The notes under the pieces are model-generated. The model made no database searches and had not been told where the DNA came from. It worked only from the letters and a program-made list of their open reading frames with translations. 64,000 nt of DNA from contig NC_022357.1 in assembly GCF_000297055.2 (NCBI RefSeq), positions 1,871,501 to 1,935,500 on the forward strand, in the 5' to 3' direction. Source of the stretch: Sulfuricella denitrificans skB26. Lineage in GTDB: Bacteria > Pseudomonadota > Gammaproteobacteria > Burkholderiales > Sulfuricellaceae. Of this stretch, positions 33,659 to 45,141 are shown piece by piece; position 1 is the stretch's first letter, and each line of letters starts with the position of its first letter. The translations under genes and the position numbers were made by a program.

Positions 33659-34687
33659 ATGAGGAATAAATTTCTTTGCGTTGGTGCCAACATCCGGATA
33701 TCCGCTGTTTTTCATGCGATGGCATTGTATATTTTTTCCACACTGTTCTGCCTGTCCGGTGCTCATGGCGGCACGGAATCAGACGATCCCATCAGCACAC
33801 ACTCCGTGGTTTACACCCAAGCCAAACGAAATGCTGTTGCAGCACTGAATATCCCTGCTGAGGGGGATAGCGCAAGAGCAGCAGAGCTATCCGAGGAAGA
33901 TAAGCGTTTTCGGACGCAGGCGCTAATTTGGGGCGGAGCCGGAACCGTTTTAGCCTATGGTGCCACTGTCTGGTGGAAGGAAGGAACTTCCGGCCATTTC
34001 CGTACCACCAACGAAGGATGGTTTGGACAGGACACCTATGCCGGGGGGGCGGACAAATTGGGCCATGCCTATTCTACTTATGTGGGAACCCGCCTGCTTG
34101 CCAGCGCCTTCGAATGGGCAGGAAACGACCGGGACGACGCTGTCATCCTGTCGGCAGCAACCGTGTTCGGCACAATGCTAGCTGTGGAAACGCTCGATGG
34201 CTTCTCGAAACGATACAAGTTCAGCAAGGAAGATTTGATCATGAATACTCTCGGCACCGGGCTGGGTCTATTGTTCGAGAAAAACAAACGCCTTGACGAC
34301 CTGTTCGATTTCCGCCTTCATTACTGGCCTTCCGGCGATGCGAAACGGCTCAATCAGGTCGGACCGGTCGGAGACTATTCGGGACAAACCTACTTGCTTG
34401 TTGCCAAGGCAACCGGCATACCGCAACTGAAAAACCATGATGTGCTGCGCTACTTCGAGTTAGTGGCGGGTTACGGTTCACGAGGCTTCGAACCCAACGA
34501 CGGAGTGCCAGCACCTGACCGAAGCCGGCACATCTACTTCGGCATTTCACTGAATATTTCGGAGATCTTAAGGAACACGGTATTTCGCGATGCCAAAGAA
34601 AAAAACCTCAACCGGCAGGTCACCGATACTGTCCTGGAGTATGTTCAGGTTCCCGGTACCGCTGTACTGGCCGACCACCGGCTTTAA
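33659..34687 (+). CDS. DUF2279 family exported protein
   Basis: 342 residues. A signal segment (about 18-38) is followed by a DUF2279-like region: GWFGQDTYAGGADKLGHAYS (about 120-139) is the clearest match. Further helices (SAATVFGTMLAVETLDGFS) and a C-terminal beta-rich part with aromatic and charged repeats suggest an outer-membrane or periplasmic protein. Function is unknown. Its promoter region overlaps the upstream side of the amtB enhancers. Its stop is 3 bases from the end of the converging 105-residue gene. Confidence 0.75.
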   Translation: MRNKFLCVGANIRISAVFHAMALYIFSTLFCLSGAHGGTESDDPISTHSVVYTQAKRNAVAALNIPAEGDSARAAELSEEDKRFRTQALIWGGAGTVLAYGATVWWKEGTSGHFRTTNEGWFGQDTYAGGADKLGHAYSTYVGTRLLASAFEWAGNDRDDAVILSAATVFGTMLAVETLDGFSKRYKFSKEDLIMNTLGTGLGLLFEKNKRLDDLFDFRLHYWPSGDAKRLNQVGPVGDYSGQTYLLVAKATGIPQLKNHDVLRYFELVAGYGSRGFEPNDGVPAPDRSRHIYFGISLNISEILRNTVFRDAKEKNLNRQVTDTVLEYVQVPGTAVLADHRL

Positions 34688-34690
34688 CCG

Positions 34691-35008
34691 CTATTTGGAA
34701 TCGATATCCAACCCGAAGCGGTGGGTATGGTTGATGACGTTGAGTAGCAGCTTGAATGGAATGCTCGGGCCGAACCTCTTGACGATCGCCATATATGGCA
34801 GATCAGGCCCGTTGGGGTCGAACTGGTAGCGCCCGGAAGTCATATCGTCAAACATCTGGCGCAATTCCTTGTCCATCGCATCCACCCAGGGCAGGATCAT
34901 GGTCTTGCGCTCTTCGTCATCCTCGACGATGGCGCGTAGCTCATCCACTTCATAAACCGCCTGGTGAACCAGGTCGATGTATTCATCTAAAGTTTTAGGA
35001 TTTTTCAT
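34691..35008 (-). CDS. Small conserved-looking protein of unknown function linked to the Qmo/Hdr operon
   Basis: 105 residues, acidic and soluble, with no Cys and no signal peptide. Two helical stretches, TLDEYIDLVHQAVYEVDELR (about 6-25) and DAMDKELRQMFDDM (about 43-56), precede a Pro/Gly segment and a C-terminal helix ending in HRFGLDID. I do not recognise the family. A strong AAGGAGG ribosome site supports it. It lies 106 bases after hdrB in the same direction, across a GC-rich hairpin (GGGGCG 35063-35068, CGCCCC 35079-35084) that lacks a T run. It may be a partner or assembly factor for the complex. Confidence 0.75.
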   Translation of the reverse strand: MKNPKTLDEYIDLVHQAVYEVDELRAIVEDDEERKTMILPWVDAMDKELRQMFDDMTSGRYQFDPNGPDLPYMAIVKRFGPSIPFKLLLNVINHTHRFGLDIDSK

Positions 35009-35114
35009 AATGCCTCCTTGTCCTGCGGCACCAAAAGTAGGCGCCTCTAGGCGAAACGATTAGGGGCGACCCGCAGGCCGCCCCCCAAGTTGCTGCCATC
35101 AAGATGGTTATTCT

Positions 35115-36017
35115 TTACTTCTTGTTGGCAATTTCCTCTAGCTTGGTCGCACGAACCAGCTGGCCGTCCAGCGCAGCTTCCTGCGCGCTACCGCCGTAAG
35201 CGACAGTGATCAACTGAGAATAATACATCACCGGGATGTTGAACTTGGTACCGAAGCGCTTGTTCACTTCACCCTGGTAGATCTCAACGTTGGCCTGGCA
35301 CAGCGGGCATGGTGTGACGATCATCTCAGCACCATGATCGTAAGCAGATTCGATAATATCCTTGATCTGTTTCTGGCTTTTCTCCGGCTCGGAGAAGGCC
35401 AATGCACCGCCGCAGCAGGTCACTTTCTGGTCGTAAGATACCGCTTCACCACCCATCGCCTCGATCAGGTTATCGAGATACACGGGATTTTCAAATGATT
35501 CACCGGCAAGACCGAAAGGGCGATTAGTCTGACAGCCGACGTAACCGGCGAATTTGATGCCCTGCAGCGGGTTCTTTACACCCTTCTTCAGTTCATCGAA
35601 ACCGAAATCCTCAACCAGCACCTCCGCCATATGGCGTGCCGCCTGATTGCCTTTATAGGTCAGTCCCGCCTCGTTCAGAGCCGTGTTGGCATCAGCCAGC
35701 GTCTGCGAACTGTGAGCCAGGCGCTCCTTGGATTCACGAGTGGAAAGCCAGCACGCAGCACAGGTTGCGACCAGATCCATGCCCGGGTTGTGCTGTTCGG
35801 ACAGTGCCATATTGCGGGCAGACAGCGTGATGCGCGGCAACTCGCCACCTTCGGCATAGCCGATAGATGCACCGCAACAATTCCAGTCCGGAATTTCTTT
35901 CAGTTCGATGTCCAAGTATTTGCACATCGAATTTGTCGACTTCAGGTAGTTGTCTGAGGACGCCTTGGTTTGTGACGAGCAACCGGGGTAAAACGAGTAT
36001 GTCTTTTTAGCCATCAT
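35115..36017 (-). CDS. hdrB: HdrB-like heterodisulfide reductase subunit (CCG-domain protein) of a Qmo-Hdr complex
   Basis: 300 residues with two CCG domains. The first shows GCSSQ (about 13), NCCGAS (about 46) and CAACW (about 85). The second shows GCQTNRP (about 160), TCCGGA (about 203) and CPLCQ (about 240). In methanogens these ligate the unusual non-cubane [4Fe-4S] clusters that reduce a disulfide. Here the substrate is not CoM-S-S-CoB and is unknown. It is the fourth gene of qmoA-qmoB-hdrC-hdrB, seven bases after hdrC. The ATG at 36014 (second in the pair) has the better spacing from AAGGAG. Confidence 0.92.
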   Translation of the reverse strand: MMAKKTYSFYPGCSSQTKASSDNYLKSTNSMCKYLDIELKEIPDWNCCGASIGYAEGGELPRITLSARNMALSEQHNPGMDLVATCAACWLSTRESKERLAHSSQTLADANTALNEAGLTYKGNQAARHMAEVLVEDFGFDELKKGVKNPLQGIKFAGYVGCQTNRPFGLAGESFENPVYLDNLIEAMGGEAVSYDQKVTCCGGALAFSEPEKSQKQIKDIIESAYDHGAEMIVTPCPLCQANVEIYQGEVNKRFGTKFNIPVMYYSQLITVAYGGSAQEAALDGQLVRATKLEEIANKK

Positions 36018-36024
36018 TGACTCC

Positions 36025-36624
36025 TTAGGCGAAATTCTTGCGACGGTCTTCTATTTCCTTCGCTTTCTTCAGCATGGCATGGAAGCCGGTCTTATCCTTA
36101 ACGCCGTGTCCACCAAACAATTCCATCGGGTTCAGGCGCTTCGCCTTTACCATTCCCAGGCCAACGCTCTGCATCGCCATGGCGTTCTTGACGCCCTGAG
36201 CAAAACCATCCTTGAAATAAATTCCAAGAGAAAGTTTCAGCTCGTTGACGCGGCCAGTCTGTGCCAGGTTGTTCCAGAACAGGGTGGCGAATTGCTGCGT
36301 CGGCTGGTTCTTCGGCGAAAGTCCCAGACGGTGAGCATAGTTAGCCAAACCGTGCATGATGTGGGTGATCGGCAGCTTGCGCGGGCAACGCACGACGCAG
36401 TTGTAGCAGGAAGTGCACATCCACATCGAATCGGATCTCAGAACTTCCTCGCGCTTGCCGGCGCGGATCATCATGAAAATTTCCTGTGGCGGATGTGCCC
36501 AGTGCGGGCCGAGCGGACACGAGCCGGCACACACGCCGCACTGCATGCACATTTTTACCCATTCACCTTCCTCGACCATTTCCTCAACTTCCTTGAGGAA
36601 ATTATTATGATATTTTTCGCTCAT
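36025..36624 (-). CDS. hdrC: HdrC-like iron-sulfur subunit of the Qmo-Hdr complex
   Basis: 199 residues. It carries two classical [4Fe-4S] motifs: CMQCGVCAGSCPLG (about 26-39) and CTSCYNCVVRCP (about 70-81). The second half is helical and contains no membrane segments. In the usual sulfate-reducer QmoC, an HdrC-like part is fused to a heme-b membrane domain; here that membrane domain is absent. It would pass electrons between QmoB and HdrB. It follows qmoB after 10 bases. Confidence 0.93.
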   Translation of the reverse strand: MSEKYHNNFLKEVEEMVEEGEWVKMCMQCGVCAGSCPLGPHWAHPPQEIFMMIRAGKREEVLRSDSMWMCTSCYNCVVRCPRKLPITHIMHGLANYAHRLGLSPKNQPTQQFATLFWNNLAQTGRVNELKLSLGIYFKDGFAQGVKNAMAMQSVGLGMVKAKRLNPMELFGGHGVKDKTGFHAMLKKAKEIEDRRKNFA

Positions 36625-36634
36625 TTGCCGCCTC

Positions 36635-38905
36635 CTAGAATCCCTTTAACGGGCTCATGCCGATTTCCTGGATCTTCGCCGCGTAATCGTTGATCAGCTG
36701 CGGCACGCGCTCGATGTCGGTAATTGCGACCTCGAAGGTGGCAACCCGATCTTCTTCCAGCCCCATTTGCTTGAGCGTGTCACCGATCTTGCTCATGCGG
36801 TAGCTGGCAAGCTCCGAGCCCTTGACAAAATGGCACTGGTAATCATCGCCATGCTTGCAACCCATCATCATCACACCGTCATAGCCGCTGCTCAGCGCAT
36901 CGTTGATCCAGATGGTGTTGACAGAACCCAGACAACGAACCGGAATGATACGCACGTACGCACTGTAAACGTTGCGGTTCATCGCCGCCATGTCGAGCGC
37001 AGGATAAGCGTCGTTTTCGCAGGCCAGAATAAGAATGCGCGGCTTCTCGGAAAACTCGTCAGGAACGTCAACCGCTTTCAGCTGCGAGCCGACGGTATCA
37101 ATCGAGTAGTTCTCGAAAGAGATCACGCGCACTGGACAGGCGCCCATACAGGTGCCGCAACGGCGGCAACGGGATTCATTGAACACCGGGAAGCGTTTCT
37201 CATCTTCGTCGATGGCACCGAATGGGCATTCCACTGTACAGCGCTTGCACTGGGTGCAGCCCTCGAGACGCACTTTCGGAAAGCTCAAATCGCCCGAACG
37301 CGGATGCGCGGCACGGCCCAGACCGGCATTCTCGACCGCCTGGATTGCCTTCATCGCAGCGCCTGTGGCGTCTTCCATCGCCTGCACCATGTCCATCGGA
37401 CGGCGCACCGGGCCGGCGGAATAAATGCCGGTACGGCGAGTTTCGTAAGGGAAACAGATAAAGTGCGAATCGGTAAAGCCATACTTCAGCTGCGGCACGT
37501 CAGGCCCCTGACGATAGGTCAGGTTGAGCACGGAAATCGGCTGAACGGCACCTTCGGCCTGGGAGGCATTGTAAGCTTCCAGCAGGGAGTTATCACCAGC
37601 TGCAGCGGCAATGTCTGCTTTCAGCTTGGTGTCAATATCAACGCCGGAATTCGGCACCTGACCGGTGGCCAATACCACTAGGTCGGCATTGTCGATGGCG
37701 GTCTGATCGTTGAGGATCAAGTCGTGGAAATTCACCTTACACTGGTTGCCAGCGGCTTCAACGCTGGAAACTTTGCCCTTGGTAAAAGTCACGCCCTTGT
37801 TCTGGCCGCTGCGGTAGAAATCTTCACCATTGCCGGGCATGCGCAGATCGGTGTAAATCACTACCGTATCGATGTCAGGATTGGAATCCTTGAAATACAT
37901 CGCCTGCTTGACCGAGGTCGAGCAGCAGGAACCAGAGCAGTAAGGTAAATGTTTGCCGGTATCGTCCCGCTGACCGGCGCACTGGACGAATACCACGGTC
38001 TTCACTTCGCCGCCGTCCGAGGGGCGCTTGATCACGCCACCGTTGGCCGCCTTGGCAAGCGCTTCCAGTCCGGCCTGATCGACAACGTTCGCGGACTTGC
38101 CATAGCCGAGTTCGGGAAGGTTATTGGCGTCGTACAGCGAGAAACCGGTGGCCTGAATAATGGCACCAACTTTCTCGGTCGCGGTAGAACCAGACTCAGT
38201 GCTGATCTCGATTTCAAATTGTCCCGGGGAGCCGGAGGTCTTGCTGGTGATGGCGTTGAGGTAGACCTTGATATTGGCGTCGGCTGTTATCGCCGCGTCC
38301 ATATCCGCCACTGGCGTATCTTGCGGCTCAGCATACGGCGACTTGCCCGGCGAACGCTTGTGCAACTTGGCCGCCCAACCGCCGAGGGCGCCGGATTTCT
38401 CCACTAGCACCACCTTGTAGCCAGCTTTGGAAGCCTCCAGAGCAGCGGTCATACCGGAAACACCACCGCCCACCACCAGTACGGTACGCTCGGTAACGGC
38501 TGCCGGATTACCCTCAGGCAGGGTCATTTTCTTCACTTCGGCGCAGCCCATGCGGATGTAGTCTTCCGCCATTTCCTGCGTGGTCTCGCGCGCTTCGTCG
38601 GTCTCAGGCTGGCACCAGATCACGCCTTCGCGCAAATTGGCGCGTGACACAGCGACATCGGTGAAGCCGAAAGCCTCGGTTTTGGCGCGACGTGAACAGG
38701 CGCCGATCATGACATGGGTAACGGCTTCGTTGGCAATGTCATCGCGGATCATCTTGACGCCTTCAGCGTTGCACAGGAACTCATGCTCCCTGACCAGCGC
38801 GGCCTTACCTTCTTTTTTAGCCACACCGGCCAATGCGGCCGTATCCAGGCGATCGCCCAAACCACACCCCTGGCAAATGTAGGCTGCTACTTTCATATCT
38901 GCCAT
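36635..38905 (-). CDS. qmoB: QmoB: HdrA/MvhD-like flavin iron-sulfur subunit
   Basis: 756 residues. N-terminal ICQGCGLGDRLD (about 10-21); FAD-binding VVGGGVSGM (about 143-151), followed by LVEKSGALGG; and CAGQRD with SGSCCS. Two ferredoxin motifs, CTQCKRCTVECPFGA and CRRCGTCMGACP, sit near 555-605. A C-terminal MvhD-like domain has PVRCLGSVN and GCKHGDDYQCHF. This is the layout of QmoB in Qmo complexes, which shuttle electrons between APS reductase and a carrier. The start follows qmoA by 4 bases. Confidence 0.93.
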   Translation of the reverse strand: MADMKVAAYICQGCGLGDRLDTAALAGVAKKEGKAALVREHEFLCNAEGVKMIRDDIANEAVTHVMIGACSRRAKTEAFGFTDVAVSRANLREGVIWCQPETDEARETTQEMAEDYIRMGCAEVKKMTLPEGNPAAVTERTVLVVGGGVSGMTAALEASKAGYKVVLVEKSGALGGWAAKLHKRSPGKSPYAEPQDTPVADMDAAITADANIKVYLNAITSKTSGSPGQFEIEISTESGSTATEKVGAIIQATGFSLYDANNLPELGYGKSANVVDQAGLEALAKAANGGVIKRPSDGGEVKTVVFVQCAGQRDDTGKHLPYCSGSCCSTSVKQAMYFKDSNPDIDTVVIYTDLRMPGNGEDFYRSGQNKGVTFTKGKVSSVEAAGNQCKVNFHDLILNDQTAIDNADLVVLATGQVPNSGVDIDTKLKADIAAAAGDNSLLEAYNASQAEGAVQPISVLNLTYRQGPDVPQLKYGFTDSHFICFPYETRRTGIYSAGPVRRPMDMVQAMEDATGAAMKAIQAVENAGLGRAAHPRSGDLSFPKVRLEGCTQCKRCTVECPFGAIDEDEKRFPVFNESRCRRCGTCMGACPVRVISFENYSIDTVGSQLKAVDVPDEFSEKPRILILACENDAYPALDMAAMNRNVYSAYVRIIPVRCLGSVNTIWINDALSSGYDGVMMMGCKHGDDYQCHFVKGSELASYRMSKIGDTLKQMGLEEDRVATFEVAITDIERVPQLINDYAAKIQEIGMSPLKGF

Positions 38906-38909
38906 TTAA

Positions 38910-40196
38910 TTAACCCTCCACTCTGGCAACACGGTTAACCACCTGAATTGCGCGCAAAGCGCTCGCAGTGGCGCTCTGCACCGCACGGTTCACATCTAAC
39001 GGATTGGATGCGCAACCCGCGCCGAAGAAAGCGTGGTTGGCCGGATCAGCCTCGATGAAACCACTCGAATCGGATACGATTTCCGCCGGGAGGTTGGCGC
39101 CCGTGACGGATGGCTCCATACCCACCGCCAGAACAACCAGGTCGTGAGGAGTGGCATAGCGGTGATAACCCTCGGTATTCACACCGTGCAGAATCACGTC
39201 GCCGGTTTTCTCATCTTGTGTGACTTTAGCGACCTTGGACTTGATGAAGCTGACAGTCGGGTCCTTCAGCACTTTCTGGTAGAAGTCCTCGAAACGGTCT
39301 ATCGCCCGGATATCGATGTAATAAATGGTGGACTTGCCGGCATCACCGTAGGCTTCACGCACGTAATTAGTCTGTTTCAGCGAGGCCATGCAGCAGATAC
39401 GCGAGCAGTGACGCAGATGGTTCTCGTCACGCGAACCGGCGCATTGGATGAAGGCGATGTTTTTCGCCTCCTTACCATCTGAGGGCCGCAGTATCTTGCC
39501 CTTGGTCGGACCATGAATATCGGCCAGGCGCTCGAACTCGACGCTGGTGATGACATTCGAGAAACGGCCATAGCCATAGGGTTGAATTTTCGCCGCATCG
39601 TAAGGCTTCCAACCGGTCGCCCAGATTACCGCCCCGGCCTTGAACTGGACGGTCTCTTCTTTCATGTCGAGATCGATCGCGCCATATTTGCAGGCGGCTT
39701 TGGCCTTGTCGGCATCGGCAGTACCGATAATCGACGGGTCAAGCACATAGCGCTGCGGATAGGCCATTTTATGAGGCAGATAAGCCGCCTTGATCTTGCC
39801 AAGGTTGTAATTAAACGCGTCCAGCACTTCGGCATCTACCGCCTTGGAGCATTCGCCGCAAGCGGTACAGTTTTCGTTGACGTAGCGCGGAGCCAGCTTG
39901 ACGGTGGCACTGTAATCACCTTCACCGCCAGTGATCGCCGTCACTTCAGCCATGGTCAGCACTCGGATGCGCGGATTCTGTTTGAGACGACGCAAGTTGA
40001 TTTCCAGACCGCAGGTCGGGTGGCACAGCTTGGGGAAATAGCGATAAAGCTGGGAAACACGACCGCCAAGGGCGGGGTTCTTTTCCACCAGCACCACATT
40101 CTTGCCGCACTCGGCCGCCTCTAGGGCGGCTGTCATACCGCTGATGCCACCACCGACGACCAGAATGGTCTGATTGGTTGCAATAACGTCCGTCAT
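38910..40196 (-). CDS. qmoA: QmoA: HdrA-like flavoprotein
   Basis: 428 residues. It has FAD-binding VVGGGISGMTAALEA (about 13-27) and LVEKNPALGGRVSQL (about 36-50), then CHPTCGLEINLRR and CTACGECSKA (about 116-125), and CAGSRDENHLRHCSRICCMA (about 254-273) in the HdrA core. It lacks the extra ferredoxin and MvhD parts of QmoB, as usual. In sulfur oxidisers Qmo takes electrons from APS reductase as sulfite is oxidised; aprBA itself is not in the window. First gene of the operon; GATGGAGG ribosome site. Confidence 0.93.
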   Translation of the reverse strand: MTDVIATNQTILVVGGGISGMTAALEAAECGKNVVLVEKNPALGGRVSQLYRYFPKLCHPTCGLEINLRRLKQNPRIRVLTMAEVTAITGGEGDYSATVKLAPRYVNENCTACGECSKAVDAEVLDAFNYNLGKIKAAYLPHKMAYPQRYVLDPSIIGTADADKAKAACKYGAIDLDMKEETVQFKAGAVIWATGWKPYDAAKIQPYGYGRFSNVITSVEFERLADIHGPTKGKILRPSDGKEAKNIAFIQCAGSRDENHLRHCSRICCMASLKQTNYVREAYGDAGKSTIYYIDIRAIDRFEDFYQKVLKDPTVSFIKSKVAKVTQDEKTGDVILHGVNTEGYHRYATPHDLVVLAVGMEPSVTGANLPAEIVSDSSGFIEADPANHAFFGAGCASNPLDVNRAVQSATASALRAIQVVNRVARVEG

Positions 40197-40980: not shown

Positions 40981-41529
40981 TTAGAACATCGGCTTGACAG
41001 CTGCTTCCTGATACCGCTTAACGCCGGCCAGGATCTCGGTCTTGGTCTCCTCCGCACCAACCCATCCCTCCACCTTGACCCACTTGCCTGCTTCCAGATC
41101 TTTGTAGTGCTCGAAGAAGTGGCTGATCTGTGACAGCGTCAGTTCCGGCAAGTCACGCGGCGACTCGATGTTGCGATAAAGATTGCACAACTTGTCGATC
41201 GGCACTGCCAGCAGCTTGGCATCCTCGCCAGCCTCGTCTGTCATCTTGAGCATGCCTATCGGGCGACAACGCACCACCACGCCGGTAATCAGCGGCACCG
41301 GCGTAATCACCAGCACGTCTACCGGGTCGCCGTCATCAGACAAGGTATGAGGGATGTAGCCGTAGTTGCAAGGATAATGCATGGCTGTGGACATGAAACG
41401 ATCCACAAACATGGCACCGGTATCCTTGTCTACTTCGTACTTGATCGGGTCGCCGTGCATCGGAATTTCGATGATGACATTAAAATCGTTCGGTAGATCG
41501 CGTCCGGAACTGACTCGGTCAAGATTCAT
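40981..41529 (-). CDS. ppa: Soluble inorganic pyrophosphatase, family I
   Basis: 182 residues from the ATG at 41529 (MNLDRVSSG), preceded by GAGGTTAGCC. Family I signature YKYE-like [17 protein letters not shown] (about 29-45), [23 protein letters not shown] (seen in parts at about 52-74) with the three catalytic Asp, and KLLAVPI (about 105). It hydrolyses PPi to phosphate. It lies directly downstream of the membrane pyrophosphatase, with a terminator between them. Confidence 0.96.
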
Positions 41530-41544
41530 CTGGCTAACCTCAAA

Positions 41545-41575
41545 AAATAAAGCCGGCATTATACCGGCTTTATTT
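41545..41575 (-). terminator. Terminator of hppA
   Basis: Inverted repeat AAATAAAGCCGG at 41545-41556 and CCGGCTTTATTT at 41564-41575, with loop CATTATA. On the reverse strand a T run follows (TTTATTTTTTG). It lies after the hppA stop (41612) and overlaps the upstream leader of ppa, which would therefore need its own promoter or read-through. Confidence 0.88.
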
Positions 41576-41611
41576 ACAGCTACCTAACGGGCCTACTGGC
41601 CCGATTCAGGA

Positions 41612-43630
41612 TTACAGCAGAGGCACAATCATCAGCGCAACAATGTTGATGATCTTGATCAACGGATTGACAGCAGGGCCGGCAGTATCCTTATAGGGAT
41701 CACCAACGGTGTCGCCAGTAACCGCCGCTTTGTGGGCTTCGGAACCTTTACCGCCAAAGTTGCCTTCTTCGATATACTTCTTGGCGTTATCCCAAGCACC
41801 ACCGCCGGTGGTCATGGAAATAGCTACGAAGATACCGGTAACGATGGTACCGACCAGCACGCCACCCAGTGCTTGCGCACCCAGGGTCAGACCGACGATC
41901 ACAGGAACCGCAACAGGCAACAACGAAGGAATAAGCATTTCCTTGATCGCAGCCTTGGTCAACATGTCGACGCAGGTACCATATTCTGGTTTGCCGGTAC
42001 CTTCCATGATGCCCGGGATTTCCTTGAACTGACGACGAACCTCAACCACCACCGAACCCGCAGCACGGCCTACCGCTTCCATGCCCATGGCTGCAAACAG
42101 GTAAGGCACCATACCACCAATGAACAGACCGATAATCACCATGTGGTTGGACAAGTCGAAGGTCAAGCCTGGATGGTTGGTGGCTAGCGCATGCGTATAG
42201 TCAGCGAACAACACCAGCGCAGCCAGACCAGCAGAACCAATGGCGTAGCCTTTGGTCACCGCTTTGGTGGTGTTACCCACAGCGTCGAGCGGATCAGTGA
42301 TATTACGAATGGCTTCAGGCAAGCCTGCCATTTCAGCGATACCGCCAGCGTTATCGGTAATCGGACCGTAAGCGTCAAGTGCCACGATGATACCGGCCAT
42401 GGACAGCATCGAGGTCGCGGCAATAGCAATCCCGTAAAGTCCCGCGAAAGCAAAAGCGCCCCAAATTGCCAGACACACTGCAAGTACAGGAGCTGCGGTC
42501 GATTTCATCGAAACACCCAAACCGGCAATCACGTTTGTGCCATGACCGGTCGTAGAAGCTTCGGCAATGTGGCGCACCGGGCTGAACTCGGTTGCAGTGT
42601 AGTACTCGGTGATCCACACCAATGCAGCGGTCAGCAGCAGACCAATGACAGCGGAACCATACAGCGCGTTAACCGAATACACACCATTATCACCCATCAT
42701 CATGGAAGTGATCGGGTAGAACGCAATCAGCGCCAGCACAGCGGAAACAGCCAGTCCGCGATACAGGGCGTTCATGATCTTGCCACCTTCACGCGCCGTA
42801 ACAAAGAAAGTACCAATGATGGAAGCGATGATCGAGAAGCCACCCATCACCAACGGGTAAATCACCGCATTAGGAGAACTAGTCATCAACAAGCCGCCCA
42901 GAATCATAGTGGCGATAATGGTTACAGCGTAGGTTTCGAACAGGTCAGCGGCCATACCAGCACAGTCGCCCACGTTGTCACCCACGTTATCTGCAATAAC
43001 AGCCGGGTTGCGTGGATCATCTTCAGGAATCCCGGCTTCGACTTTGCCGACCAGGTCAGCGCCAACGTCAGCGCCCTTGGTGAATATACCGCCGCCAAGA
43101 CGGGCGAAGATGGAAATCAGCGAACCACCGAAGGCCAGTCCGACCAAAGCATGAGTCGCTTGAGTGGTGGTCTCGCCCAGTCCCATGGTAAGAACTGCGT
43201 AGTAACCTGCCACACCGAGGAGACCCAGGCCAACCACCAGCATGCCGGTGATCGCACCACCCTTGAAAGCCACATTCAAGGCAGCGTTGAGGCCATCCTT
43301 GGCGGCTTCAGCGGTACGGATATTGGCACGAACAGATACGTTCATGCCGATATAGCCGGTCAGACCGGAAAGAAAAGCGCCGAGAGCAAAACCAACCGCA
43401 GTTTGCCAATCCAGGGCAGCATAAATTGCCACCAGCAGAATCACGCCAACAACAGCGATCGTAGTGTATTGCCGATTAAGATAGGCTGAAGCCCCTTCCT
43501 GCACTGCAGCGGCGATTTCTCGCATGCGATCGTTGCCTGTCGGCAAGCCCAAAATCCACTTAATCGAAACCGCTCCATATAGAAGCGCCGCAATTGCACA
43601 TAACAGTGCAAACCCCAGACCACCTGACAT
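41612..43630 (-). CDS. hppA: Membrane proton-pumping pyrophosphatase, K+-independent type
   Basis: 672 residues from ATG 43630, preceded by GGGGAGAG; the frame is open five residues further up. About 16 membrane helices. The PPi-binding core has [20 protein letters not shown] (about 180-199) and [18 protein letters not shown], and [20 protein letters not shown] near the end. In [16 protein letters not shown], Lys and Thr stand at the two positions that are Ala and Gly/Ala in K+-dependent enzymes. This marks the K+-independent H+-pumping clade. It conserves PPi energy as a proton gradient. Confidence 0.96.
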
Positions 43631-43650
43631 AATTACTCTCCCCAAGTTAA

Positions 43651-43739
43651 GCCGGCCGATCAGGGCCGGCCAATCGCCCTAAAGCCAAACATCCCAACAC
43701 CCAAACCCAAAAACACCCACAAAAACTGATCTACATCAA
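43651..43739 (-). promoter_or_regulatory. hppA leader: hairpin and FNR/DNR-like box
   Basis: A hairpin GCCGGCC-GATCAG-GGCCGGC at 43651-43670 lies 20 bases before the hppA ATG, next to its ribosome site. Further up, TTGAT-GTAG-ATCAG (reverse strand, 43726-43739) matches the FNR/DNR consensus TTGAT-N4-ATCAA at 9 of 10 positions. A class II start would fall near 43691. No convincing -10 was found, so this is a candidate only. The 251-base gap to pfp holds no gene. Confidence 0.5.
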
Positions 43740-43881
43740 ATAACATTCATCCAGGAATCAGCTTTTTGTCCGGAATAATCCCGCAAAATGCGTTCGATCA
43801 TCTACGCACTCGGGAATGAACCTGCCACTGATCCGGTAAAACGGTTTGTTCAGCAGCAAGTTCATTCTTTACTCCCAAGAC

Positions 43882-45141
43882 TTAAAGCTTGAATTCGCCT
43901 AGCTTCTTCGGCACCGCTACGTTCTTGAGCCGAACATATTGTGGCAGACCATCCTTATAGGGTGGGTAGTCCTCGCCCTTGATCAGAGGTGCCAGATATT
44001 CACGACATTTTTCGGTAATCCCGAAGCCATCTTTGGTGATAAAGTTTTTCGGCATCATCTTTTCGACGTTGGCGACCTTGCTGAGCTGCGCCATACCAAC
44101 TTTCCACTTGTAAGGTGCATTCGACACACGGTCGATGGTAGGCATCACCGAGTTGTGGCCCTTGAGCGCAAATTCGACTGCCGCTTTACCCATCGCATAG
44201 GCCTGATCCACGTCGCTCTTCGAAGCGATGTGACGAGCAGCACGCTGCAGATAATCGGCCACGCCCCAGTGGTACTTAAGGCCAAGACCTTCGCGAACGA
44301 TGTTAGCCACCACCGGTGCAACGCCGCCTAGTTGAGCATGGCCGAATGCGTCCTTGAGGCCTTGGTCGGCGAGAAACTTGCCGTCGGCACTCATTACACC
44401 TTCGGACACCACTACGGTGCAATAGCCGAATTTCTTAACCAGCTCGTCCACGCGGGCAAGGAATTTTTCTTTGTTAAATGTCACTTCCGGGAACAGAATC
44501 ACGATCGGCTGCTCGGCGTCCTTGGTAGAAGCCAGCCCGCCAGCGGCAGCGATCCAGCCTGCGTGACGGCCCATCACTTCGAGCACGAACACCTTGGTCG
44601 ATGTCTTGCACATAGAGGCCACGTCAAAGGTCGCTTCCAGAGTGGAGACAGCAATGTATTTGGCAACAGATCCAAAGCCAGGGCAGTTATCGGTGATCGG
44701 CAGGTCGTTGTCCACGGTCTTCGGCACATGGATGGCCTGGATCGGATAGCCCATCTTTTCCGAAAGCTGCGACACTTTCAGGCAGGTGTCGGCGGAATCG
44801 CCACCACCATTGTAGAAAAAATAGCCGATGTTATGCGCCTTGAACACCTCGATCAGGCGCTCATACTGGAGCTTGTTCTCTTCCAGACTTTTCATCTTGA
44901 AGCGGCAGGAGCCGAATGCACCGGAAGGTGTGTGGCGCAATGCAGCGATGGCCTTGGCGGTATCCTTGCTGGTGTCGATCAGGTCTTCGGTCAACGCACC
45001 GATGATACCGTTGCGGCCGGCATAAACCTTGCCGATGATGTCCTTGTGCTTGCGCGCAGTCTCGATCAAACCGCAGGCGGATGCATTGATCACCGCGGTC
45101 ACGCCACCGGACTGGGCATAAAAAGCGTTCTTCTTAGCCAT
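43882..45141 (-). CDS. pfp: PPi-dependent 6-phosphofructokinase
   Basis: 419 residues. The substrate loop is GGGDSADTCLK (about 114-124), and the catalytic box is PKTVDNDLPITDNCPGFGS (about 144-162). The Lys of PKTVDND, where ATP-type enzymes have Gly, is a mark of PPi use. The MGRHAGWIAA motif (about 190) is also present. It phosphorylates fructose 6-phosphate reversibly with PPi. Located between adk and hppA on the same strand, with ppa further downstream, so the PPi theme is clear. Confidence 0.94.
   Translation of the reverse strand: MAKKNAFYAQSGGVTAVINASACGLIETARKHKDIIGKVYAGRNGIIGALTEDLIDTSKDTAKAIAALRHTPSGAFGSCRFKMKSLEENKLQYERLIEVFKAHNIGYFFYNGGGDSADTCLKVSQLSEKMGYPIQAIHVPKTVDNDLPITDNCPGFGSVAKYIAVSTLEATFDVASMCKTSTKVFVLEVMGRHAGWIAAAGGLASTKDAEQPIVILFPEVTFNKEKFLARVDELVKKFGYCTVVVSEGVMSADGKFLADQGLKDAFGHAQLGGVAPVVANIVREGLGLKYHWGVADYLQRAARHIASKSDVDQAYAMGKAAVEFALKGHNSVMPTIDRVSNAPYKWKVGMAQLSKVANVEKMMPKNFITKDGFGITEKCREYLAPLIKGEDYPPYKDGLPQYVRLKNVAVPKKLGEFKL

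Follow-up and report, generated by a model that had tools for sequence, protein, structure and literature searches.

A small gene of no named family co-occurs with the QmoAB-HdrCB gene set in Sulfuricella denitrificans and many other Gammaproteobacteria

Beside the Qmo complex that carries a membrane heme-b subunit (QmoABC), a variant with HdrB and HdrC, QmoAB-HdrBC, has been described in strain Hiromi 1 and in Thiobacillus denitrificans (passages of PMC4136832). It is discussed together with AprBA in passages of PMC2211403 and PMC10504309, and HdrAACB/QmoABHdrCB is named in part of PMC6397845 among the proteins sought in strains that include Sulfuricella. The passages of PMC4136832 call the function of the complex not clear, and those of PMC10504309 state that, in sulfate reducers with the variant, coupling to the membrane is considered impossible when QmoC is missing, and treat electron delivery by QmoAB-HdrCB without a membrane subunit as an open question. 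The subject here is such a gene cluster, qmoA-qmoB-hdrC-hdrB, together with the small gene behind it, in a stretch of 64,000 nucleotides from Sulfuricella denitrificans skB26 (contig NC_022357.1, positions 1,871,501 to 1,935,500; hereafter the window).

It is rather probable that a soluble QmoAB-HdrCB takes up the electrons of AprBA and that, jointly with this, the small protein is an accessory of the sulfite-oxidation route. This reading rests on which genes are present, on the lack of a QmoC above the cut-off, and on the purifying selection, linkage, and co-occurrence seen for the small gene; what we infer is which way the electrons run, what accepts them, that the proteins touch, and that the small protein is an adaptor.

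All five genes of the cluster lie on one strand (Table 1). A preliminary description of this DNA, made from its letters alone, had seen HdrCB in the place of QmoC and soluble subunits only, and the analysis agrees on both points. The highest Kyte-Doolittle mean over any 19 residues in the five proteins is 1.41, so by this simple measure none of them has a transmembrane-like stretch, and a search for a qmoC-like membrane gene elsewhere found no protein over the curated QmoC cut-off in the whole genome. Seven matches fall below that threshold, the best being HdrC of the qmo cluster, which matches the qmoC model NF038018 (E 9.1e-14) at model positions 4-91 of 360, that is, over about the first 90 positions only. 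Both CCG domains of HdrB have the complete Cys-CC-CxxC set. The best NCBIfam match of HdrB is SdhE of 8-methylmenaquinol:fumarate reductase (E 1.3e-51) with the HdrB model close behind (E 5.5e-50), and its scores fall well short of either curated cut-off (175.8 of 500 bits for SdhE and 170.3 of 345.15 bits for HdrB). The spacings within the cluster (4, 10, and 7 bases) and the 106-base gap before a 105-residue gene with a strong ribosome site (AAGGAGG directly before the ATG) are as first described. The aprBA genes, which were to be sought elsewhere in the genome, are there: aprA scores 905.6 bits and lies about 154 kilobases (kb) from the qmo cluster within an apparent sat-aprB-aprA set, as read from the translations. 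In a tree of 27 AprA rows the host protein falls in one of two deep lineages, beside those of the Qmo carriers G083, G233, and G345; this lineage probably corresponds to the published lineage II.

Table 1. Features of the qmo cluster, with positions counted from the first letter of the window
Feature	Position	Strand	Description
qmoA	38910..40196	minus	428 residues; HdrA-like flavin adenine dinucleotide (FAD) protein; NCBIfam HdrA2 E 1.4e-106, far under that model's cut-off
qmoB	36635..38905	minus	756 residues; HdrA-like FAD/4Fe-4S protein fused to FlpD/MvhD domain; PF02662 E 5.3e-40, residues 624-749
hdrC	36025..36624	minus	199 residues; two 4Fe-4S cysteine sets; best NCBIfam match HdrC TIGR03290 E 2.3e-25
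hdrB	35115..36017	minus	300 residues; two CCG domains; cysteines 13/47/48/86/89 and 162/201/202/237/240
GC-rich stem-loop	35062..35085	minus	gap between hdrB and small gene; 10 pairs, 8 of them G-C; terminator-like position
small gene	34691..35008	minus	105 residues; predicted four-helix protein; no named family

The small gene is real and under strong purifying selection. Its ratio of nonsynonymous to synonymous substitution rates is 0.014-0.071 against seven close-relative loci, most pairs being close to saturation at synonymous sites; these are six distinct loci, because L012 and L140 are the same contig. An AlphaFold2 model of the protein (50 rows) has a mean predicted local distance difference test score of 93.6 and a predicted template modelling score of 0.85, with predicted helices at residues 7-28, 32-57, 73-82, and 86-98. 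The conserved columns of the family hold no cysteine, and the best kept part is the C-terminal PF..LL..IN.TH..GL. That the protein has no nameable family, as initially noticed, is borne out by the searches. Against Pfam and NCBIfam, the protein and 50 family members give no convincing match but only scattered weak ones (most commonly LA_3659 and SpiroCoCo in NCBIfam, each in 3 of the 50, best E 4e-4; 13 Pfam models, each in one of the 50). A PDB profile search gives 17 matches at E 1, the best a designed coiled coil (E 7e-4), with no stretch passing alone, and Foldseek of the model against the PDB gives none at E ≤ 0.001 (best E 1.0). FliT (PF05400) was considered and rejected, since it reaches 14.7 of 29.5 bits, under the Pfam cut-off, and in one of the 50 family members only. 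Literature searches on Qmo/QmoD and the small protein returned no description of it, and Thiobacillus locus tags returned no papers. With no conserved cysteine and no PDB fold match, the protein probably carries no redox cofactor, and the simplest guess is that it acts as an adaptor or in docking or assembly.

In the order of the window, which we take to be Burkholderiales in GTDB within the class Gammaproteobacteria, the small gene occurs in 23 of 200 genomes and HdrB in 34, with all 23 among the 34. It stands directly behind hdrB on the same strand in 21 of the 23 carriers (adjacency in L030 is taken from the match position, and L030 and L031 are weak matches with E about 2e-5); in the other two, G088 and G129 of one genus, it is on another contig than hdrB, beside apparent sensor kinase/response regulator genes. 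The 80 named loci used, the top ones among 146 that were confirmed, overlap in part with the assemblies of these 200 genomes. In 51 of the 80, hdrB is followed by the small gene within 600 bases (median gap 87); in the remaining 29, hdrB lies 1.4-8.5 kb upstream (13 loci) or is not on the stretch (16 loci). Protein identity across the 80 is 46-99%, and the nearest named relatives (94-99%) are Sulfuricella records plus bins labelled only proteobacteria or Hydrogenophilales. In a search beyond the class, confined to this phylum and so not reaching known QmoABC carriers, a draw of 398 genomes whose make-up is visible only in part contains the small gene twice, both times in the window's order. 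Bearers include Sulfuricella, Thiobacillus (named loci), and many gammaproteobacteria. Two named records are peculiar: L205 (CAMDCO010000001.1) is a metagenome bin labelled Bordetella parapertussis in which hdrB is followed by the small gene, the label very likely being misassigned, and in isolate STA_24 two contigs, L193 and L194, both have qmoAB-hdrCB plus the small gene at an identical spacing of 3075 bases, which may reflect strain duplication in the bin.

Across the class, surveyed in 369 genomes with a small-gene profile match at E 0.01 and QmoB at E 1e-120, the small gene is present in 68 genomes (absent from 301) and QmoB in 62. Both occur in 56, the small gene only in 12, QmoB only in 6, and neither in 295, giving an odds ratio of 229; G539, counted as having both, has its small-gene match in two pieces. 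Restriction to genomes at least 90% complete leaves 48, 9, 6, and 251, respectively (hand count). Among the 106 genomes with aprA the same four classes hold 53, 8, 5, and 40, so the small gene tells aprA carriers with QmoB from those without, and its Jaccard overlap with QmoB is 0.76, against 0.54 with aprA. In the ten aprA-carrier families that vary for both genes, 26 of 28 genomes agree, and within-family shuffles among aprA carriers reached the observed overlap in 20 of 200000.

This association at the level of the genome is maintained without linkage. No qmo or hdr gene is beside the small gene in any of 67 stretches outside the window's genome (read about 1.5-4 kb to each side or to the contig end), and prmB, hemN, aroC, or radA is near it in 49 of them. 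Conversely, 20 of the 61 other QmoB genomes were opened (6 with QmoB only and 14 with both): all 20 have qmoA-qmoB-hdrC-hdrB, and the small gene is at none, the contigs of L244 and L256 ending within 200 bases of hdrB. Another 13 QmoB loci in the window's order, chosen by HdrB or an adjoining small gene, also have hdrCB; all these loci were seen under sampling in which the searches started from the QmoB or HdrB of the window. The expectation that relatives of the small gene always sit beside qmoAB-hdrCB thus fails outside the window's order, and homologs without Qmo neighbours, named in advance as evidence against a partner role, are, taken to the letter, what is seen there (0 of 67 stretches with a qmo or hdr gene). 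Because its presence nevertheless follows QmoB closely across genomes, the idea of an undescribed partner survives in altered form, as frequent companionship in the genome and not in the gene cluster. In a tree of 50 family members, 11 hdrB-adjacent copies fall on one side of a branch with support 91/80 that recurs in 92% of bootstrap trees, which is compatible with a single move of the small gene into the qmo cluster; this reading is weak, as 17 of the 47 inner branches are open.

Several observations weigh against the small protein as an accessory of a soluble Qmo route. The small gene is found without QmoB in 12 of the 68 class genomes, and none of the 12 has QmoB even at E 1e-20 (weak HdrA-like matches of 28-30% occur in G462 only). 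Some of these entries are weak: the match in G469 has E 0.003, that in G462 has an internal stop, and completeness is below 80% for G376, G413, and G515. The sound ones number six (G208, G254, G297, G416, G461, and G508), with G508 a complete genome in one contig. A lineage-II AprA, by score and tree, is present in five of the 12 (G208, G254, G413, G461, and G508), so lineage-II AprBA may be the partner there. The complex also occurs without the small gene in 17 genomes, 11 in the window's order and 6 elsewhere in the class. The 11 have no small-gene match even at E 1; no diverged small gene lies directly behind hdrB in the ten stretches opened from them, all of which have qmoAB-hdrCB, and the stretch of the eleventh, G122, whose hdrB is cut by the contig end, was left out. 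In the six elsewhere, the best small-gene match has E 0.06. Six further families vary for one gene only and stand outside the within-family test, with 6 of their 14 genomes discordant; the test itself covers aprA carriers, with family labels as a coarse control for descent that is no substitute for a species tree.

The gap between hdrB and the small gene adds a further point on this side. Its stem-loop has more G-C pairs than base shuffles give (its count was reached by 0 of 200), and stems with at least six G-C pairs are present in 16 of 19 such gaps, while in 11 of the 19 no more than 1 of 200 shuffles equals the stem; these are base shuffles, not dinucleotide shuffles, and the 19 gaps comprise the window's own and those of 18 among the 20 remaining hdrB-adjacent loci of its order (L030 and L031 left out). 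A consensus scan of the region gave 6 terminators against 5.4 expected, no excess, and no promoter-like site directly upstream of the small gene. Given this GC-rich hairpin, the small gene may or may not be transcribed together with hdrB.

One discordant entry can be read the other way. The complete genome G279, which lacks Qmo, retains a truncated piece of the small gene (L089 4000-4155, residues 1-52) between prmB and hemN. This piece is 69% identical to the intact gene in the same prmB-hemN place of the congener G403, which has QmoB. We take the remnant as a loss in step with Qmo, though it is tabled as discordant.

A route consistent with these data would begin with lineage-II AprBA, which most likely oxidises sulfite (with adenosine monophosphate) to adenosine 5′-phosphosulfate (APS) and passes the electrons to QmoAB. 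HdrC and HdrB would replace the membrane subunit QmoC in this soluble Qmo variant, and electrons would pass the flavins and clusters of QmoB and QmoA to HdrC and then HdrB. From the two CCG sites of HdrB they may go on to an acceptor for which, by analogy with SdhE-type enzymes, the quinone pool is the simplest candidate; a quinone is plausible because HdrB scores slightly closer to SdhE of the quinol enzyme than to methanogen HdrB. For the small protein, the likeliest role is that of an adaptor or an assembly/docking factor bound to QmoAB-HdrCB or to the interface of this complex with AprBA. A stronger version, in which it is a dedicated fifth component that takes over the role of QmoC by docking the complex to its acceptor or to the membrane, and has been acquired and lost along with the complex throughout Gammaproteobacteria, also where the genes are unlinked, is possible but doubtful; if true, the small protein stands in for QmoC. 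In either form, a conserved protein that tends to co-occur with the complex is a concrete candidate for a component still missing from the picture of how sulfur oxidisers oxidise sulfite.

The small protein could instead serve lineage-II AprBA or the whole sulfite/APS step, its tie to Qmo being indirect because most lineage-II AprBA works with QmoAB-HdrCB. The five genomes above that combine the small gene and a lineage-II AprA without QmoB are what this predicts, but G292, G412, G378, G470, and G562 have a lineage-II AprA with neither QmoB at E 1e-120 nor the small gene (as does G435, lineage-II AprA only, at 55% completeness), and the small gene sits within the qmo cluster in the window's order, far from the host aprA. 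This alternative appears unlikely. Quite unlikely, too, is a general role for the small protein, with co-occurrence arising merely from shared old sulfur-oxidising lineages. Such a role would account for the prmB, hemN, aroC, or radA neighbourhood, the missing qmo linkage there, and the six sound genomes with the small gene only; prmB, aroC, and hemN are, however, common genes, and the small gene is absent from most of the class. Its association with QmoB also persists within ten families and among aprA carriers, and both the grouping of the hdrB-adjacent copies on one branch side and the remnant in the Qmo-less G279 speak against this explanation.

The preliminary description had further proposed flavin-based bifurcation, and a bifurcating or confurcating QmoAB-HdrCB might use the small protein to link a soluble second acceptor. 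The idea has been raised for Qmo in passages of PMC4949241. The HdrA-like flavoproteins, the FlpD/MvhD domain of QmoB, and the two complete CCG motifs of HdrB agree with it at the level of motifs, but no hydrogenase, formate dehydrogenase, or ferredoxin gene was recognised by eye among the open reading frames at 30-45 kb in the window. Midpoint potentials are about -60 mV for APS/sulfite, +110 mV for ubiquinone, and -320 mV for nicotinamide adenine dinucleotide (NAD). By these values sulfite can reduce quinone directly, and bifurcation is therefore not needed; an NAD/quinone split would be slightly uphill, and we consider this mechanism improbable. Least of all does the small gene look like an unrelated neighbour behind the operon terminator whose co-occurrence is a sampling artefact. 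The 106-base gap with its hairpin and the 29 of 80 named loci without the small gene directly behind hdrB would suit that view, but adjacency in 21 of the 23 genomes of the order and the strong association where the genes are unlinked make it very improbable. The joint reading of a soluble QmoAB-HdrCB with the small protein as accessory is the one preferred.

The surroundings of the qmo and apr genes offer some observations of their own. On the minus strand beside qmo (40981-45141), visual reading of the translations suggests soluble pyrophosphatase-, membrane H+-pyrophosphatase-, and pyrophosphate-type phosphofructokinase-like genes; ATP sulfurylase of the APS route also uses pyrophosphate as a substrate. 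On the other side, only 3 bases separate the ends of the small gene and of a convergent DUF2279/VanZ-like gene (33659-34687, plus strand), which is matched in only L010 and L011 among 22 other small-gene loci of the order. The apparent sat-aprB-aprA set of the host genome (L055 7954-15805) is followed by YkgJ-type and cbbQ/cbbO (ribulose-1,5-bisphosphate carboxylase/oxygenase activase)-like genes, as seen by eye, and the same genome has two dsrA matches over cut-off, at C1:2112124 and C1:2761750 (505.1 and 499.9 bits). G208, G254, and G508 (L126, L127, and L130) each have two aprA matches of different deep lineages and no QmoB; lineages were assigned by score and second copies placed by tree, and an electron partner of the lineage-II aprA is not evident in the stretches read.

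Compared with described systems, the window shares QmoA and QmoB with the QmoABC of sulfate reducers and Chlorobi, and its HdrC corresponds to the N-terminal part of QmoC; it differs in that the membrane heme-b subunit itself has no counterpart over cut-off in the host. HdrB has two complete CCG motifs in common with SdhE and HdrB, but scores far below either family's threshold. The QmoD protein of Desulfovibrio vulgaris (DVU_0851) is likewise hypothetical, and its gene immediately follows qmo genes, as given in part of PMC10920352; identity with it was set aside by size alone, as the listed value of 25.8 there (taken as kDa) compares with 105 residues here. The closest system is the QmoAB-HdrBC or HdrAACB of sulfur oxidisers and Gram-positive sulfate reducers, which has the same gene set as the window: the four genes are clustered without qmoC, and the host aprA falls in what is probably lineage II. 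Since QmoAB-HdrBC in sulfur oxidisers is already published and the small gene is unmentioned in the QmoAB-HdrBC passages of PMC4136832, PMC2211403, PMC10504309, and PMC6397845, the small gene is the new part that this locus brings to a known complex.

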